Below are positions 4,355 through 63,735 of a stretch of DNA of 64,000 bases, piece after piece. The notes under the pieces are model-generated. The model saw only the letters and a list, made by a program, of their open reading frames with translations, ran no database searches and had not been told where the DNA came from. This DNA is from Teredinibacter franksiae (GTDB lineage: Bacteria; Pseudomonadota; Gammaproteobacteria; Pseudomonadales; Cellvibrionaceae). The stretch lies in assembly GCF_014218805.1 (NCBI RefSeq), contig NZ_JACJUV010000001.1, forward strand, positions 2,244,501 to 2,308,500. Direction: 5' to 3'. The position numbers and the translations under genes were made by a program. Position 1 is the stretch's first letter; every line of letters starts with the position of its first letter.

Positions 4355-5614
4355 ATGAACCTTACCGACCTTAAACAAAAATCCATCGAAGAACTCATCG
4401 AAATCGCAAAAGAAATGGGCATGGAAAACCTTGCCCGCTCGCGCAAACAAGATGTCATTTTTAATATCCTGAAACGCCATGCCCGTAGCGGCGAAGATAT
4501 TTACGGCGATGGCGTATTAGAAATACTGCAGGACGGTTTCGGCTTCTTGCGCTCAGCAGACTCCAGCTACCTTGCTGGCCCTGATGACATCTATGTTTCA
4601 CCGAGCCAGATTCGCCGCTTTAACCTGCGTACAGGCGATACCATTTCCGGCAAAATTCGCCCACCGAAAGAAGGCGAGCGCTATTTCGCCCTGCTCAAAG
4701 TTAACCAAATTAACTTCGACAAACCGGAAAATTCTCGCAATAAAATTCTTTTTGAAAACCTCACCCCCCTGTTTCCAACCGAGCGTTTGGTTTTGGAAGC
4801 CGGTAACGGTTCTACAGAAGATTTAACTGGTCGTATTATCGATTTAATATCGCCTATTGGTAAAGGTCAGCGCGGCCTGATTGTGGCACCGCCGAAAGCC
4901 GGTAAAACTATTATGATGCAGAATGTTGCACAGGCGATTACCCGCAATAATCCCGAATGTCATCTTATTGTTCTACTTATCGACGAGCGCCCAGAAGAAG
5001 TAACCGAAATGCAGCGCTCAGTGCGCGGTGAAGTTGTTGCCTCCACCTTCGACGAGCCACCTTCGCGCCACGTACAGGTAGCCGAAATGGTTATTGAACG
5101 CGCCAAGCGTTTGGTTGAACACAAAAAAAATGTTGTGATTTTACTCGACTCCATTACTCGACTCGCCCGCGCGTATAACACCGTAATCCCATCCTCCGGT
5201 AAAGTGCTTACTGGTGGTGTTGACGCCCATGCGCTGGAGCGCCCAAAACGTTTCTTTGGCGCTGCGCGCAATATCGAAGAAGGCGGTAGTCTGTCCATCG
5301 TCGCGACGGCCCTTATCGATACCGGCTCCAAAATGGACGAGGTTATCTACGAAGAGTTCAAAGGTACCGGCAACTTAGAACTACACCTCGACCGAAAAAT
5401 TGCGGAAAAACGTGTTTACCCCGCCATTAACATTCGCCGCTCGGGTACCCGCCGCGAAGATTTGCTGATGAAAGAAGACGAGCTTGCGCGTGTATGGATT
5501 CTGCGTAAATTGTTACACGATATGGAAGATGTCAGTGCAATTGAATTCTTGTCAGACAGACTAAAAGGCTTTAAAACCAACGAGCAGTTTTTCCTGTCGA
5601 TGAAGTCCAAATAA
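4355..5614 (+). CDS. rho: Transcription termination factor Rho
   Basis: Hexameric RNA-dependent ATPase that ends transcription at unstructured C-rich RNA. The 419 residues equal the E. coli length. Order: Rho N helix-extended domain ([20 protein letters not shown]), OB-fold RNA-binding domain (DGFGFLRS), Walker A ([12 protein letters not shown]), Walker B ([16 protein letters not shown]), the Q/R-loop segment (KVLTGGVDA), and the C-terminal FLSMK end. The start ATG has no strong Shine-Dalgarno, and a strong inverted repeat lies just upstream. It is followed by a GC-rich hairpin and then ubiD. Confidence 0.97.
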
Positions 5615-5632
5615 ACGGCGTTTAAGCGCCGT
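5615..5632 (+). terminator. Hairpin directly after rho stop
   Basis: ACGGCG and CGCCGT pair around TTTAAG, beginning at the base after the rho stop codon. There is no U run, so it is not a classical intrinsic terminator. Confidence 0.4.
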
Positions 5633-5830
5633 ATAGAGCGGCGGCACCGCCTGCTGGAAACGTCCGCTGCGCTCCACTTCTGGGGCGCTTCGCTGCTTCT
5701 GGACTGCTTTGCAGCCTGCTGGGGAAACCCGAAAAAACGTAACAACAGCCTCTTCCAGCTGCCAAAGGCAGCGCTCCAGAAGCAAACTCCGTTCGCACTC
5801 CGTGATCCACACTTTTTATCAGAGTAAAAC
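5633..5830. other. Structured GC-rich spacer, rho to ubiD
   Basis: About 200 bases without a believable gene. Several short inverted repeats are packed together, such as GGCGG/CCGCC in GGCGGCACCGCC and CTGCC-AAA-GGCAG. Imperfect repeats of CGCTGCGCTCC/CGCTTCGCTGCTTCTGG and of CTGGAAAC/CTGGGGAAAC also occur. The ubiD start lies at its end. Confidence 0.5.
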
Positions 5831-7297
5831 ATGTTCAAAGATCTGCGAGACTTTATCGAACTGCTCGAAAAAAGAGGGCAGCTGAAGCGCATTAAGCACC
5901 CCGTTAGCCCTCACCTCGAAATCACTGAAATCTGCGACCGCACGTTGCGCGCGGGTGGGCCTGCGCTGTTATTTGAAAATGTTGAAGGCCACACGTTTCC
6001 GCTGCTTGGTAATCTGTTTGGTACACCTGAACGCGTTGCTTTGGGTATGGGGCAAGAAAGTGTAGAAGCGTTACGCGAAGTAGGCGAACTACTGGCATTT
6101 TTGAAAGAACCAGAGCCTCCCAAGGGCATGAAAGACGCTTGGGCAAAATTGCCGATATTCAAACAAGTACTGAACATGTCGCCCAAGGAGGTGAAAAAGG
6201 CCGCTTGTCAGCAAATCGTATTGGCAAACGATCAAGTCGACCTAACCCAGCTGCCTATTCAAACCTGCTGGCCGGGCGATGCCGGCCCACTCATTACTTG
6301 GCCATTGGTTATTACCCGCGGCCCCAACAAAGAGCGGCAGAATCTCGGCATTTACCGCATGCAGTTAATCGGCAAAAACAAACTAATAATGCGTTGGCTC
6401 AGTCATCGCGGCGGCGCACTGGATTTTCGCGAATGGCAACAGCAGCACCCCGGTGAGAATTTCCCCGTATCCGTAGCCTTGGGCGCAGACCCGGCAACAA
6501 TATTAGGTGCGGTAACACCGGTACCCGATACGCTTAGCGAATACGCCTTTGCCGGTTTACTTCGCGGCAGTAAAACCGAAGTCACAAAAAGTATTGGTAA
6601 TGATTTGCAGGTTCCCGCCAGTGCCGAATTCATTTTGGAAGGCTATATCGCCGAAAATGAGATGGCCGACGAAGGCCCCTTTGGCGATCACACCGGCTAT
6701 TACAATGAGGTGGATAGCTTCCCTGTTTTTACCGTGGAACGTATTACCCACCGCAAAGAGCCTATCTACCACAGCACTTATACGGGCCGCCCACCCGACG
6801 AACCCGCTGTACTAGGCTTGGCGCTCAACGAAGTGTTTATACCGCTGCTGAAAAAACAATTCCCGGAAATTGTTGATTTTTATCTGCCGCCGGAAGGCTG
6901 TTCCTACCGCTTGGCTGTTGTGACCATGAAAAAGCAGTACCCCGGTCATGCTAAACGGGTAATGCTCGGCGTTTGGTCTTTCTTGCGCCAGTTTATGTAT
7001 ACCAAATTTGTTATTGTTACCGATGACGACGTAAACGCACGCAATTGGGAAGATGTGATCTGGGCTATTACCACTCGCGTTGATCCCTCGCGCGATACCA
7101 CCCTCATCGACAACACCCCCATCGATTATTTAGACTTCGCATCGCCGGTATCGGGCTTAGGCTCAAAAATGGGCATCGATGCAACCAATAAATGGCCGGG
7201 CGAAACAAACAGAGAATGGGGAACACCCATAGAGATGACAACTGAGGTCAAACAAAAGGTTGATGACCTATGGGACAGCCTTGGCATAATCGATTAA
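5831..7297 (+). CDS. ubiD: 4-hydroxy-3-polyprenylbenzoate decarboxylase
   Basis: Decarboxylates the octaprenyl-4-hydroxybenzoate intermediate of ubiquinone synthesis using prenylated FMN supplied by UbiX. The 488-residue length is typical. It begins [20 protein letters not shown], the family N-terminus, and has the prFMN/metal region [17 protein letters not shown]. The conserved acidic loop [12 protein letters not shown] follows, then the C-terminal segment [12 protein letters not shown] typical of UbiD. rho-ubiD proximity is also seen in Pseudomonas. The partner ubiX is not in this window; ubiA, acting one step earlier, is at 54.4 kb. Confidence 0.96.
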
Positions 7298-57246: not shown

Positions 57247-58173
57247 ATGTATTCTAACAATCGCTTCATACGCCCGTTTATATTTTATTTGTTCGCATGC
57301 TGCTCCCTCCTGCTGTCGCTATCCGCTAACGCTATAGAGCGAGTAACGGCGCTGCCCGATATGGGCACGGGCGATGCGCGGCAAGTCTACTTTGCGAAAT
57401 TACTGCGCGCAGCGCTTGCCACAACCGAAGACGAATTTGGCCCCTACGAGCTGGTAAAACCCGACTTTCATATGAGCAGCCAACGCATGATGATGGAGCT
57501 GCTAACCGGCGACAATCTTTCTGTAGGCCTATCGCCCTATAAAATCGCCTGGGAAGGTAAAACCCACATAGTGCCGGTCCCACTGATTCGCGGCCTTGCC
57601 AGTTATCGACTATTTCTTGCGTCGAAAAAAAGCGAAGAAAAACTCGCTCAAGTACAGCACCTTAACGATTTACGCCAGCTAAAAATCGGCCAGGGGCAGG
57701 GCTGGTCTACCGCAAAAATATTGACGGATCATAAACTTTCTATCGTCTATGCGGCATCCTATCGGGGCATGTTCAAAATGCTGGAAGCCGGCAGATTCGA
57801 TCTGTTGATGCGCAGCCCCCATGAAATCATCTCTGAAAAAGCTATTTTTTCTTCTGCAGAATCAAACATTACTATAGAAAAGCGTTTTGCCATTTACAGT
57901 TATTTACCCTATTACTTCCACGTAACTCTCAAAAATAAGGTTTTAGCAAAACGACTAGAACAAGGCATTAAAAGTCTCTATGCATCTGGCGAAGTCGACA
58001 ACCTACTAACTGAACACTTCGACGAAGCGATTGAACTAGTATTGATGCCTCACAAAAAAATATTCTACTTGGAGAACACCAATCTTCCCCAGGGAGTTTT
58101 TGAAAGAGACAAGCCCTACTTAATGACCCTCGAAATACCCAAAACACCCATAAGTAGAAACTTATCTCCTTGA
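57247..58173 (+). CDS. Periplasmic binding-protein-like protein, paralogue 1
   Basis: 308 residues with a signal peptide (FIFYLFACCSLLLSLSANAI). The mature part resembles the type-II periplasmic-binding fold: LPDMGTGDARQVYFAKLLRA, VPVPLIRGLASYRLFLASK, LKIGQGQGWSTAKILTDHKL, GRFDLLMRSPHEII and SYLPYYFHVTLKNKVLAKRL. It contains no membrane domain or enzyme domain, and no ABC transporter genes lie next to it. The following gene is a clear paralogue (roughly half the residues identical by eye). Ligand unknown. A perfect TATAAT (57211-57216) stands 31 bases before the start. Confidence 0.75.
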   Translation: MYSNNRFIRPFIFYLFACCSLLLSLSANAIERVTALPDMGTGDARQVYFAKLLRAALATTEDEFGPYELVKPDFHMSSQRMMMELLTGDNLSVGLSPYKIAWEGKTHIVPVPLIRGLASYRLFLASKKSEEKLAQVQHLNDLRQLKIGQGQGWSTAKILTDHKLSIVYAASYRGMFKMLEAGRFDLLMRSPHEIISEKAIFSSAESNITIEKRFAIYSYLPYYFHVTLKNKVLAKRLEQGIKSLYASGEVDNLLTEHFDEAIELVLMPHKKIFYLENTNLPQGVFERDKPYLMTLEIPKTPISRNLSP

Positions 58174-58460: not shown

Positions 58461-59348
58461 ATGGCTGGTTTTGGTGTTTTTAGACAGCTAACTCTCATTA
58501 TCTGCCTAGCATTTCCCTCTATCGCGCACAGTATTGAGCGTGTTATTGGCCTACCGGATATGGGTAAGCGTGATATAAGGCAGGTCTATTTCACCCGCGT
58601 AATGATTGCCGCGCTCGATAACACCAACGCAGAATACGGGCCTTACGAAATCATTAAACCCAACCTCACCATGAGCAGCCAACGGATGATGGCTGAACTC
58701 ACTACGGGTGATAACCTATCCGTGGGTATATCGTCCTACAAACCGACGTGGGAGGGGCAAACGCTGATAGTGCCCGTACCACTGATTCGTGGGCTGGCAA
58801 GTTACCGCTTATTCCTCGCCAAAACGAGCCAGAAAGAAAAGCTGCTGCAGGCCATTAGCTTTGAAAATTTGAAAACGTTTAGTTTCGGTCAAGGGCACGG
58901 CTGGTCTACAGCCAAAATATTGGAAGATCATGACTTCAAGGTCGTTTACGGCGCAAACTACCAGGGTCTATTTAAAATGCTGCTAGCAAACCGCTTCGAT
59001 TTATTTATGCGTAGCGCTCATGAAATAATTTTGGAAAAACCACTTTTTGATGAACGTGAAGACGACATATTTGTTGTGGATACATTTGCCCTTTACACCT
59101 ATTTGCCTACCTATTTCCACGTAACAAAACGACAACCTGCATTAGCTAAAAGGCTGGAGGATGGACTGAACATAATGTACTCCACCGGTGAGATCGACAG
59201 CCTGCTCACCGAATACTTTACTGAAGCTATAGAAATAATTTTGCAGCCTGGGCGAAAAATATACCGGTTACAAAATACAAATTTGAAGCCAGGTATCTAT
59301 GAGCGTGACCAACCCTACCTAATTAAGCTTAATATGGATAACAACTAG
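58461..59348 (+). CDS. Periplasmic binding-protein-like protein, paralogue 2
   Basis: 295 residues with a signal peptide (QLTLIICLAFPSIAHS). Same blocks as its neighbour: LPDMGKRDIRQVYFTRVMIA, MSSQRMMAELTTGDNLSVGI, VPVPLIRGLASYRLFLAK, FGQGHGWSTAKILEDHDF, RFDLFMRSAHEII and SLLTEYFTEAIEIIL. It arose by tandem duplication, yet the 287-base spacer suggests separate expression. Function unknown; no transporter nearby. Two terminators follow. Confidence 0.75.
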   Translation: MAGFGVFRQLTLIICLAFPSIAHSIERVIGLPDMGKRDIRQVYFTRVMIAALDNTNAEYGPYEIIKPNLTMSSQRMMAELTTGDNLSVGISSYKPTWEGQTLIVPVPLIRGLASYRLFLAKTSQKEKLLQAISFENLKTFSFGQGHGWSTAKILEDHDFKVVYGANYQGLFKMLLANRFDLFMRSAHEIILEKPLFDEREDDIFVVDTFALYTYLPTYFHVTKRQPALAKRLEDGLNIMYSTGEIDSLLTEYFTEAIEIILQPGRKIYRLQNTNLKPGIYERDQPYLIKLNMDNN

Positions 59349-59546: not shown

Positions 59547-59981
59547 TTAAAACGTATAAACAACACGCACTGACTCATCCACCGAGGAAGCCTCCATATA
59601 ACCGATTTTGGCTGGATCTTCCGCCACCAGACGTTTTACTTCTGCATCCGAAGCCACAGTAGAGGGGGGCGTGCTACCGCCGGTAAAAATCTGCTGCGCC
59701 CAATAGGCTTTTAATTGCCTGTTATTTTTCTTCAATACGCTTTTTGCAAACGCTGCACTTATTAACGAACCTTCTGCCTGATTAACCGGCAGTGCACGCG
59801 ACTTGTCGGCATACACTTTACGCTGGCCCAGATAAATTTTCGCTATATCCGCACGCTTAAACTCATTAGTATTGCTGGGGTGCACAACTACAGCAACCTC
59901 TGCCTGAACCACTGCAGACAAGACCAACATCATCAATAATATCCCGTTAATTACGGGTTTAACTGAAAAAACCATTTTCAT
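59547..59981 (-). CDS. Short PstS-like phosphate-binding-type protein
   Basis: 144 residues from the ATG at 59981, giving a good signal peptide (INGILLMMLVLSAVVQAEVA); the frame also opens at a TTG (59999) touching the porin stop. The mature part shows the short PstS-like family: VVVHPSNTNEFKRADIAKIYLGQRKVYADK (read as two motifs), LKAYWAQQIFTGGSTPP, and ADPAKIGYMEAS-like AEDPAKIGYMEAS. It is much shorter than true PstS (about 320). It directly follows a porin gene, and the pair is likely one operon; no PstCAB is nearby. Confidence 0.8.
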   Translation of the reverse strand: MKMVFSVKPVINGILLMMLVLSAVVQAEVAVVVHPSNTNEFKRADIAKIYLGQRKVYADKSRALPVNQAEGSLISAAFAKSVLKKNNRQLKAYWAQQIFTGGSTPPSTVASDAEVKRLVAEDPAKIGYMEASSVDESVRVVYTF

Positions 59982-59999
59982 TAATTTTACCCGACTCAA

Positions 60000-61593: not shown

Positions 61594-62508
61594 ATGTATA
61601 AGCTTTTTTTGCCCTGCCTAGCGGTATTCATAGCCACCGCTGTGATCCCGGCTCGAGCAGAAGCGAGCGCTAGCCCTACCGTGCAAACGCATCGCATTAA
61701 ACTCGACAAAATCGAGCAAACCCTAAAAACCCTGCGTACGCAGTTAGCTACAGAACAATCGATACTGGAGCGGCACAATCACAATTTGTCGAATGCGGTA
61801 GAATTACAACGCCAGAGCGAACTTGAACTCAGCGTCGCAAGTACTGCTGCAGCGGCTAACCAAGACGAAGCTGTGCAACGGGATGCACGCCGCATTCAGA
61901 TTCGCTTTAATCGCCACTCGGCCAAAGTCACCCGTCAGAAAGAGCGCCAAGTCCACTCCCTCGCCGTTATTAAAGCGCTGGAAACCAAAGTGAATGCGCT
62001 CCAGCAACAGAGAATTCGCTATACCAATGCCCTGCGCGACTTAGTGGAGCAGGACAAACAAAATGCAGCGAAACGCACGGAAAAAAAACCGCCAACACTA
62101 GGTTCTACCGGCAGCTTGGCACTTGAGCAGCCCAAGCAACCTATATCCTTTAGTTGGCCATACCTTAATCAGGCAACCGAGCAAAACATCGTGTTTGCAC
62201 AACAAACGCTGGCAGAGCTCCAGCAGCTGAAAAAGCGCGGCGAAACAGATAAGGCTCCGCTAGACAAAGTTGAAATCCTTGCTCGACGTTCATTTGGTAA
62301 AGCAGAACTGAAATACCTCGGTAACAACCTTTATTCAGTAACGCGTTCTGTACAGGCAGGCCGCCAGAACTTTGCGCTATTTAACCAAGACCATTGGCAT
62401 ACCATCCCCAGTGAAGATGACGGTAAGCGCTATCGGTTTCTGTTCGATGTCTCTTCGCTCTCGAAGCCCAAGCTTCACCTATTCAAAGCTGATCTGCTGG
62501 CGGAGTAA
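61594..62508 (+). CDS. Secreted coiled-coil protein paired with chalcone-isomerase-like/TonB gene
   Basis: 304 residues from the ATG at 61594, giving the signal peptide LFLPCLAVFIATAVIPARAE; the longer frame from 61534 has no support. A long coiled coil of about 130 residues follows (LDKIEQTLKTLRTQLATEQS, VIKALETKVNALQQQRIRYT). A C-terminal globular part begins near FSWPYLNQATEQ and ends FDVSSLSKPKLHLFKADLLA. No known family recognised. Nine bases before the next gene, so the two are one operon and their products probably work together in the periplasm. Confidence 0.7.
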   Translation: MYKLFLPCLAVFIATAVIPARAEASASPTVQTHRIKLDKIEQTLKTLRTQLATEQSILERHNHNLSNAVELQRQSELELSVASTAAAANQDEAVQRDARRIQIRFNRHSAKVTRQKERQVHSLAVIKALETKVNALQQQRIRYTNALRDLVEQDKQNAAKRTEKKPPTLGSTGSLALEQPKQPISFSWPYLNQATEQNIVFAQQTLAELQQLKKRGETDKAPLDKVEILARRSFGKAELKYLGNNLYSVTRSVQAGRQNFALFNQDHWHTIPSEDDGKRYRFLFDVSSLSKPKLHLFKADLLAE

Positions 62509-62517
62509 CTCATTGTA

Positions 62518-63735
62518 ATGTTGACCACTCGTTTATACCGCGCAAGCGGCAGTTCGCGTCTGTACGGCTGTATCTGCGTATTATTCCTGTTATTCACCGG
62601 CGATATAGCATCGGCTAAGCACGTCAATGGTGTGGGCAGTTACCACGCACTAGGTAGAGAACAATACATTGCCAAATTATCACTTGCCACGCCCTCCACG
62701 GAGTCTAAATCGCTACTGCAACAAGACCTGCCCGCCACCATGGAGCTGCGTGTTGCCACCAAACGCATTCCCCAAAGGCGTTTCGTCTCCATGTGGATTG
62801 AGGCGATTACAGTAAACAATGATTCGGCCATGGTTCAACAGCACATGCAGGAACTCCTTAGCTTTAACCAACTATTTAAAGGCTCGCTGTATGAAGGCGA
62901 TCAGTTGGTTATCGACTACCAGCCACAGGCGGGTATGCGTGTAATACTCAATGACGTAGCGCTGGGGGAAATTACTTCTGGCAGTTTTTTCCGCCTGCTA
63001 TTGGCCAGCTGGATTGGCCCAGTACCGATCTCGTCTTCGTTTCGTAGCCAAATGTTAAGCCCCAACGATCAGGACGAAACACTAACTCAACGGTTTAGCA
63101 GCCTGAACCCCAGCCAGCTCCGCGCTTCAGATGTGGCCGATTGGCATCAGTCCGCACAGGAACAAGAACCAACCCCACCCGTGCAAGCAACACCAAAAGT
63201 GGCACAACCGGCAAGCACACAGCCGCAGCAGCTTACGGCGGTTCAATCTAGTATCGTCAGCACAACAGACCAACACAAACCCGAAAAAACAGAATTCCCT
63301 AGGCCAGCTGCCCAAGCAAAAGCACAGAGCGAAACAGTCGTTGCCGCTACGCCAAACACAACAGAAGCACAGCAAACTACCGACAAATCCCGAGCCACTA
63401 AAGCAGAAGAAGCGTCATTTACCCTGAGCGAAGAAACTTTGCAGGCGCAACAGGAATACTACGTTCAGCTCAGCAACCAGATTTTAAAGTATCAAGCTCT
63501 GCCACGGCAGGCTTTTCAGCGACGCCTAGAAGGCGATGTGCGCGTATTGATAAAAATTCATCGCGACGGAAAATTAAAATCACTGGAGCTGGCACACGAT
63601 TCAAAACACAAGCTGTTGAACCAACAGGCCCTCGACGCCGTTGCCGAAGCGGCCCCATTTCCACCTATTCCCGCCAGTCTGTCCGGTGAAGAGTTCGCCT
63701 TTAGCGTACCGATGAATTATCGTTTACCTTATTAA
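62518..63735 (+). CDS. Chalcone-isomerase-like domain fused to TonB C-terminal domain
   Basis: 405 residues. N-terminal signal sequence (YGCICVLFLLFTGDIASAKH). Residues about 35-185 look like the bacterial chalcone-isomerase-like fold: ATMELRVATKRIPQRRFVSM, WIEAIT, YEGDQLVIDYQPQAGMRVIL, GSFFRLLLASWIGPVPISSS. A Pro/Gln/Thr/Ala linker (about 205-310) follows, then a TonB C-terminal domain (EGDVRVLIKIHRDGKLKSLE, LDAVAEAAPFPPIPASL). The linker is not the EP/KP repeat of true TonB, and no ExbB/ExbD lie near. The signal looks cleavable, in which case it is not anchored like TonB. Function unknown; both domain calls are by eye. Confidence 0.7.
   Translation: MLTTRLYRASGSSRLYGCICVLFLLFTGDIASAKHVNGVGSYHALGREQYIAKLSLATPSTESKSLLQQDLPATMELRVATKRIPQRRFVSMWIEAITVNNDSAMVQQHMQELLSFNQLFKGSLYEGDQLVIDYQPQAGMRVILNDVALGEITSGSFFRLLLASWIGPVPISSSFRSQMLSPNDQDETLTQRFSSLNPSQLRASDVADWHQSAQEQEPTPPVQATPKVAQPASTQPQQLTAVQSSIVSTTDQHKPEKTEFPRPAAQAKAQSETVVAATPNTTEAQQTTDKSRATKAEEASFTLSEETLQAQQEYYVQLSNQILKYQALPRQAFQRRLEGDVRVLIKIHRDGKLKSLELAHDSKHKLLNQQALDAVAEAAPFPPIPASLSGEEFAFSVPMNYRLPY

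Follow-up and report, generated by a model that had tools for sequence, protein, structure and literature searches.

The TonB end domain is regarded as the terminal part of a rod that couples energy, and the locus analysed here raises the question of what such a domain may be doing on a protein that begins with a signal-like sequence and a different fold altogether. The locus lies in a window of 64,000 nucleotides (by window we mean the whole stretch of DNA analysed) from Teredinibacter franksiae, in which a first-pass annotation made from the sequence had described a secreted coiled-coil protein followed closely by a fusion of a chalcone-isomerase-like (CHI-like) domain with a TonB C-terminal domain, and had proposed a soluble adaptor recognising receptors or a lipid-like ligand. 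Our best reading, which we hold tentatively, is that of a soluble, non-energised TonB-like adaptor of the periplasm acting with its coiled-coil partner; the architecture of the fusion and the co-occurrence of the two proteins in one branch were established by computation.

Both reading frames are open over the coordinates given in Table 1, and the gap of nine bases previously noted between the genes is confirmed, running from the stop of the partner gene to the ATG of the fusion gene (62509-62517). The GGAG listed in the table lies in the last codons of the partner gene and ends 12 bases ahead of this ATG. A DUF502 gene located downstream was considered as a member of the unit and rejected, since it is not found downstream in two other loci (L077 and L078). 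Elsewhere in the window, two similar proteins are encoded in tandem (57247-58173 and 58461-59348); each begins with a signal-like sequence and looks like a solute-binding domain, and for the first no Pfam family was matched at 0.01.

Table 1. Features of the two-gene unit and of its divergent neighbours, in positions of the window.
Feature	Coordinates	Strand	Basis
Exported coiled-coil partner (304 aa) with signal peptide, then helical hairpin, linker and beta domain	61594..62508	+	Sequence, Pfam scan, predicted model; relatives P0019, P0020, L050, L051
Helical hairpin of partner, residues 28-163	61675..62082	+	Predicted model
Beta domain of partner, residues 226-298, where family conservation is highest	62269..62487	+	Family comparison, predicted model
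GGAG, possible ribosome binding site of fusion gene, within end of partner gene	62502..62505	+	Sequence reading; inference
Chalcone-isomerase-like/TonB_C fusion protein, 405 aa	62518..63735	+	Pfam, NCBIfam, predicted model
Probable signal peptide of fusion, residues 1-33, site after ASA	62518..62616	+	Sequence; family-wide motif pattern
Chalcone_3 domain, residues 36-180, Tyr42 where stand-alone relatives have Arg	62623..63057	+	Pfam, predicted model, alignment
Low-confidence (disordered) linker, residues 214-303	63157..63426	+	Predicted model; composition
TonB_C domain, residues 327-403	63496..63726	+	Pfam, NCBIfam, structure-sequence match, predicted model
Porin-like gene, divergent; homologues adjoin the fusion in L077 and L165	60000..61169	-	No own Pfam match; homologous to L165 protein matching Porin_4; association inferred
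Small PstS-like periplasmic protein, paired with porin-like gene	59547..59999	-	Weak NCBIfam TIGR02136, 5e-05, far below cut-off

The fusion itself is well supported. Its Chalcone_3 match reaches 68 bits against a Pfam cut-off of 27 (1.4e-18) and its TonB_C match 46.5 bits against 24.6 (5.2e-12), so that both halves of the architecture first proposed stand above curated thresholds; the NCBIfam model TIGR01352 is matched too (51.8 bits, cut-off 27.1), and a CHI fold and a TonB-type fold are both present in the predicted model, which agrees with the profile on the nature of the N-terminal part. A chance overlap of domains was rejected because both scores are well above cut-off and the architecture recurs in relatives; the same Pfam domains are present in 12 of the 17 proteins found with the fusion (P0001-P0012). 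The linker, described earlier as rich in Pro, Gln and Thr and free of EP/KP repeats, calls for a small correction, its 90 residues containing 15 Thr, 14 Ala, 13 Gln and 10 Pro, with one EP and one KP.

The reading of this protein as a rare curiosity was rejected, since fusions are found throughout the order. At 1e-20 a whole-protein profile of the fusion has matches in 136 of the 144 family genomes, that of the window included, many of the listed matches covering the head only, and Chalcone_3 is present in 79 of 145 genomes of the order. Both domain profiles are matched by one frame in 37 of 40 loci of the order, a set picked because the Chalcone_3 hit or fusion match was located in a frame of some length or in an additional copy, and hence biased, which indicates breadth and not frequency. 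In a tree of 101 rows the fusions come from 17 families of the order besides that of the window, and within the Cellvibrionaceae fusion loci occur also in Agaribacterium haliotis and Marinagarivorans algicola. A contig search with the single protein returned no related loci; the same search with an alignment (A1) returned three. Most fusions have no adjacent coiled-coil gene, and the two-gene unit is confined to one branch. The genome of the window holds a second, solo copy of the fusion (32% identical), with a gene order partly common to many relatives, and a Crp-like neighbour is found in 16 of 46 clustered fusion loci. Separately, we observed an exbD-like gene at about 3 to 9 kb from a solo fusion, non-adjacent to it, in L202 (9669-10085), L205, L206, L109, L110, L173 and L177.

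In order to act as a conventional transducer the fusion would need an anchor and a motor. The N-terminus had been described as cleavable (ASA-K), a view that the family-wide motif pattern favours: among 90 distinct fusions, the 79 with an NG motif at the start of the domain were counted (the 11 without it being omitted), and in 72 of these a small-x-small site lies 0-8 residues before the motif. A SHLS-like motif, even in loose form, is present in just 2 of 127 distinct fusions, not including the window protein, and a lipobox-like motif in 7 of 127. Both proteins of the pair begin with sequences resembling export signals, and export is strongly suggested on this ground. Of the hallmarks of a TonB transducer, the locus has TonB_C and lacks both the SHLS-type anchor motif and exbB/exbD, the case against an anchor being weaker than that against the motif.

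A true energised TonB, keeping its signal uncleaved as an anchor and borrowing ExbB/ExbD from elsewhere in the genome, would account for the good TonB_C domain, and the genome does offer 14 ExbD and 11 ExbB family matches. In some fusions the N-terminal hydrophobic stretch would suffice as an anchor, a 19-residue hydropathy of 2.0 or more being reached in 17 of 79, with a maximum of 1.87 in the window protein. Furthermore, the solo paralogue of the same genome has an exbD-like gene at a distance of about 5.4 kb, and such genes are found in three of six solo loci inspected (this paralogue included) and in four of the 46 clustered fusion loci. Against this stand the position of the small-x-small site just before the folded domain, the scarcity of the SHLS-like motif and the distance of the motor genes: in the family search of the genome all ExbB matches were more than about 19 kb away from the solo paralogue, and in agreement with the first-pass annotation none of the two genes is near the fusion gene of the window (C1:2307018), the closest ExbD (C1:2112954-2113322) and ExbB (C1:2113410-2114395) being about 0.19 Mb apart from it. 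We consider an energised TonB with an odd N-terminus very unlikely, and less likely than the carriage of a ligand, heme or other, which is the strongest rival of the adaptor and is discussed below.

The coiled-coil partner stays below cut-off for every Pfam and NCBIfam family, as anticipated. Its predicted model is formed by two helices (residues 28-88 and 92-163) and seven strands within residues 226-298. The Foldseek and VIA-align matches spanned the helical hairpin, barely testing the beta domain, for which a search by sequence gave no solved relative (best E 0.36). A protein search with the partner profile yielded three matches, one of them new (P0021), among the best 7995 candidates scored. 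Paralogues outside the pair were observed near a gene resembling a cyclic-di-GMP phosphodiesterase (L234, on G000:C8, 3240-4226; L235, 2765-3673; L238, 3068-4084), in three genomes of two genera; this neighbour, named by eye, starts with MSLIKRIPI or MSSKKIHVSELRPGMYVS.

Conservation of the gene pair is found at two levels. The coiled-coil gene is directly upstream of the fusion in three genomes (G000, G058 and G156, the genes being separated by 9, 6 and 11 bases, respectively), and probably on one further contig, since P0009 and P0020 each lie on one contig of 5757 bases; in five more genomes (G022, G035, G159, G160 and G161) they are co-inherited although they lie on separate contigs or at a distance of more than 0.4 Mb. 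In a tree of 83 fusions the branch of the window copy (support 99/97) consists of these eight genomes together with P0002-P0010, L197 (G022) and four members of one genus being long branches and less sure; in the tree of 101 rows the twelve rows labelled beforehand as pair-type fall in a 100/100 branch with L197 (G022) and L199 (G035), which did not bear that label. The partner tree, built on 57 domains and as few as 105 columns with the best domain-profile match of each protein, places the partners of the same eight genomes in one branch (100/100) with P0020 and a fragment from G024, and leaves 47 rows outside, including six congeners of the window's genome. Second partner paralogues of G000, G058, G035, G159, G160 and G161 are likewise outside the pair branch. 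Three loci (L044, L239 and L279) have no rows in this tree, being duplicates of P0021, L045 and L047, and an eight-row basal group in a first version of the partner tree was discarded, as it arose from second, coiled-coil matches of the domain profile. The sampling of these trees covers part of the 144 genomes, with most but not all of the further copies.

The one mismatch is G024, a genome 68% complete: the pair-branch partner fragment is present, but a search for a fusion belonging to the pair-type branch found none, its second fusion falling outside. At the level of the family, the partner domain is present in 84 of 144 genomes, all of which match the fusion profile, and none of the eight fusion-negative genomes, which span four genera, is among them. 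Over six couples, with each genus or contig represented once, pairwise distances of the two proteins are correlated (r 0.93, exact p 0.004), in a comparison that ignores species relatedness. The matched branches in eight genomes argue for a functional pair; because their inheritance is joint even without linkage of the genes, the two proteins probably act as one envelope unit.

What the CHI-like head may bind is constrained by the loss of one residue. The hallmark of CHI enzymes and fatty-acid-binding relatives, a conserved pocket arginine, is absent, and the window protein has Tyr42 instead. We aligned 93 domains from frames longer than 300 aa and 25 from shorter frames, the fusion class being thus defined by frame length (3 of the 93 have no TonB_C match). 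Position 42 is Arg in 23 of the 25 short-frame domains, the other two having a His and a gap. No long-frame domain has Arg there; His occurs in 48, Tyr in 26, Phe in 9, Glu in 5, Leu in 2, Ser and Asn in one each, and one row has a gap. A separate motif count gave Arg in 0 of 85 long and 22 of 23 short frames, with 10 rows lacking the motif. The long class has a signature of its own, near-fixed at Arg87 (87 of 93), Trp93 (83), Asn100 (90), Ser172 (85) and Arg202 (89) and mostly absent from the 25 stand-alone domains (Arg87 in 2, Trp93 in 2, Asn100 in 4, Ser172 in 2); Asp128 is common to both classes (93 of 93 and 23 of 25). We take position 42 to be that of the conserved pocket arginine of plants and fungi, an equation for which the alignment to AtFAP3 provides one low-scoring segment. 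The lipid-like ligand proposed earlier is weakened, because this arginine is missing from all 93 domains of the fusion class, and a fatty-acid carrier was for the same reason rejected as first choice.

A ligand carrier is the main alternative to the adaptor. Histidine and tyrosine are common heme ligands, and the head could bind heme or a hydrophobic ligand through the residue at position 42, TonB_C then taking the ligand to an outer-membrane barrel. The predominance of His, Tyr and Phe at this position is consistent with such a role, as is the porin-like module described below; moreover, according to PMC9996372, fatty acids are bound by the CHI-fold protein AtFAP1 and heme by Aim18p and Aim46p, which do not bind fatty acids and whose binding of heme is reduced upon mutation of the conserved arginine. 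That very arginine is lost here, 19 of the 93 rows have neither His nor Tyr, and receptors are not enriched around the fusion, so that we regard the carrier as unlikely.

The genomic context was then compared with expectation. TonB-dependent receptor genes flank the fusion in 3 of 46 loci (L078, L174 and L201). Plug matches number 24 to 63 in each of five genomes of 4.2 to 7.2 Mb, from which about 3 to 5 receptor neighbours are expected by density in 46 stretches of about 10 kb. Receptors are therefore not enriched, neither the docking target nor the receptor recognition first suggested receives support from context, and these neighbours were rejected as evidence for an adaptor. The porin-like gene and its small PstS-like companion constitute a standing module, seen by eye in nine of nine other porin loci inspected (two of which overlap, and L215 being left out of the count). 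This module adjoins the fusion in 3 of 46 clustered loci, namely those of the window, G058 and G180, the last from another family, and two of the three cases fall in one fusion branch. Porin homologues give 1 to 3 match rows in eight of nine genomes and none in the ninth, so that by density well under one porin neighbour would be expected. In this case from another family (L165, 3009-6994) the genes for the porin, the PstS-like protein, the CHI-TonB fusion and a coiled-coil protein follow each other in the same orientation; the last of these is unrelated to the partner, giving no match to its domain profile. Where partner and fusion are adjacent, the diverging neighbour is porin-like in two loci and a receptor in the third, a sample too small to prove much.

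The component families of the fusion are already known. With the TonB/HasB transducers the fusion shares the C-terminal domain, by sequence (6sly, 5lw8 and the HasB structure 2m2k) and by predicted fold, and a preceding tether; it differs in having a signal-like start in place of the motor anchor, an additional CHI-fold domain and a tether with a single EP and a single KP. The stand-alone bacterial Chalcone_3 proteins belong to the same Pfam family, and one of them (L193, 4264-4821) has by eye a signal-like start, but TonB_C is found in none of 25 and most keep the arginine. This stand-alone gene, in G043, was seen to diverge from a CHI-TonB fusion gene (5186-6400). Unlike AtFAP1, other plant CHI-fold proteins and yeast Aim18p, the fusion is bacterial, predicted to be exported, devoid of the arginine and joined to TonB_C. 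Another protein of the same genome, L129 (784-2181), likewise combines a signal-like start with TonB_C and so also seems to be exported, although it has Sel1 repeats instead of a CHI fold and its TonB_C is internal (residues 153-227 of 466). Searches of a library of open-licence papers gave no description of a CHI-TonB fusion, and the word "chalcone" is absent from the main text of a 2025 study on the evolution of TonB and TolA (PMC12204202).

Two further explanations start from these resemblances. By analogy with CpoB and TolA, the pair may be a factor of envelope structure, in which wall enzymes would be modulated by the coiled-coil protein, TonB_C having as its target the cell wall or a Tol-type partner. 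CpoB is a periplasmic coiled-coil protein that acts with a TonB-like C-terminal domain, a likeness that the pair shares, and it carries TPR after the coiled coil, whereas no TPR match was found in the window partner and six relatives (two of the pair branch); in addition, a TolA-like gene is located elsewhere in the genome, at C1:1535334, far from the pair. We judge this role distinctly unlikely. The other explanation, a decoy in which the soluble TonB_C occupies TonB boxes and tunes receptor traffic, would fit a TonB_C with no evident anchor, and the genome's TonB_C proteins with long hydrophobic N-terminal stretches would be possible competitors; it leaves the CHI-like head and the co-inherited partner unexplained, and appears to us the least probable of all.

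For the soluble adaptor we propose the following course. Cleavage of the signal would release a fusion that is soluble and not driven by ExbB/ExbD, and its TonB_C would dock through strand addition, either to an outer-membrane barrel or to another strand. A tether of about 90 residues, predicted to be disordered, would join this end to the CHI-like head, which lacks the arginine and may hold either the coiled-coil partner or some ligand whose binding does not depend on that residue. The pair would then be a passive adaptor or tether inside the envelope, resembling TonB at its far end only. The extension of this proposal to a whole class of soluble TonB-like adaptors, widespread and so far undescribed, which would have a CHI-fold head in place of the motor anchor and in one branch would work inside the envelope with an obligate coiled-coil partner and without proton-motive force, is possible though rather doubtful.

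Across the order, a TonB end domain is found on proteins that seem both exported and devoid of a motor end. If these proteins are soluble, TonB-type docking would serve proteins unable to pull, which would represent a second, passive use of the domain, and the arginine-less, fused class of CHI-fold domains may provide a route to asking what the CHI-like proteins of bacteria do.
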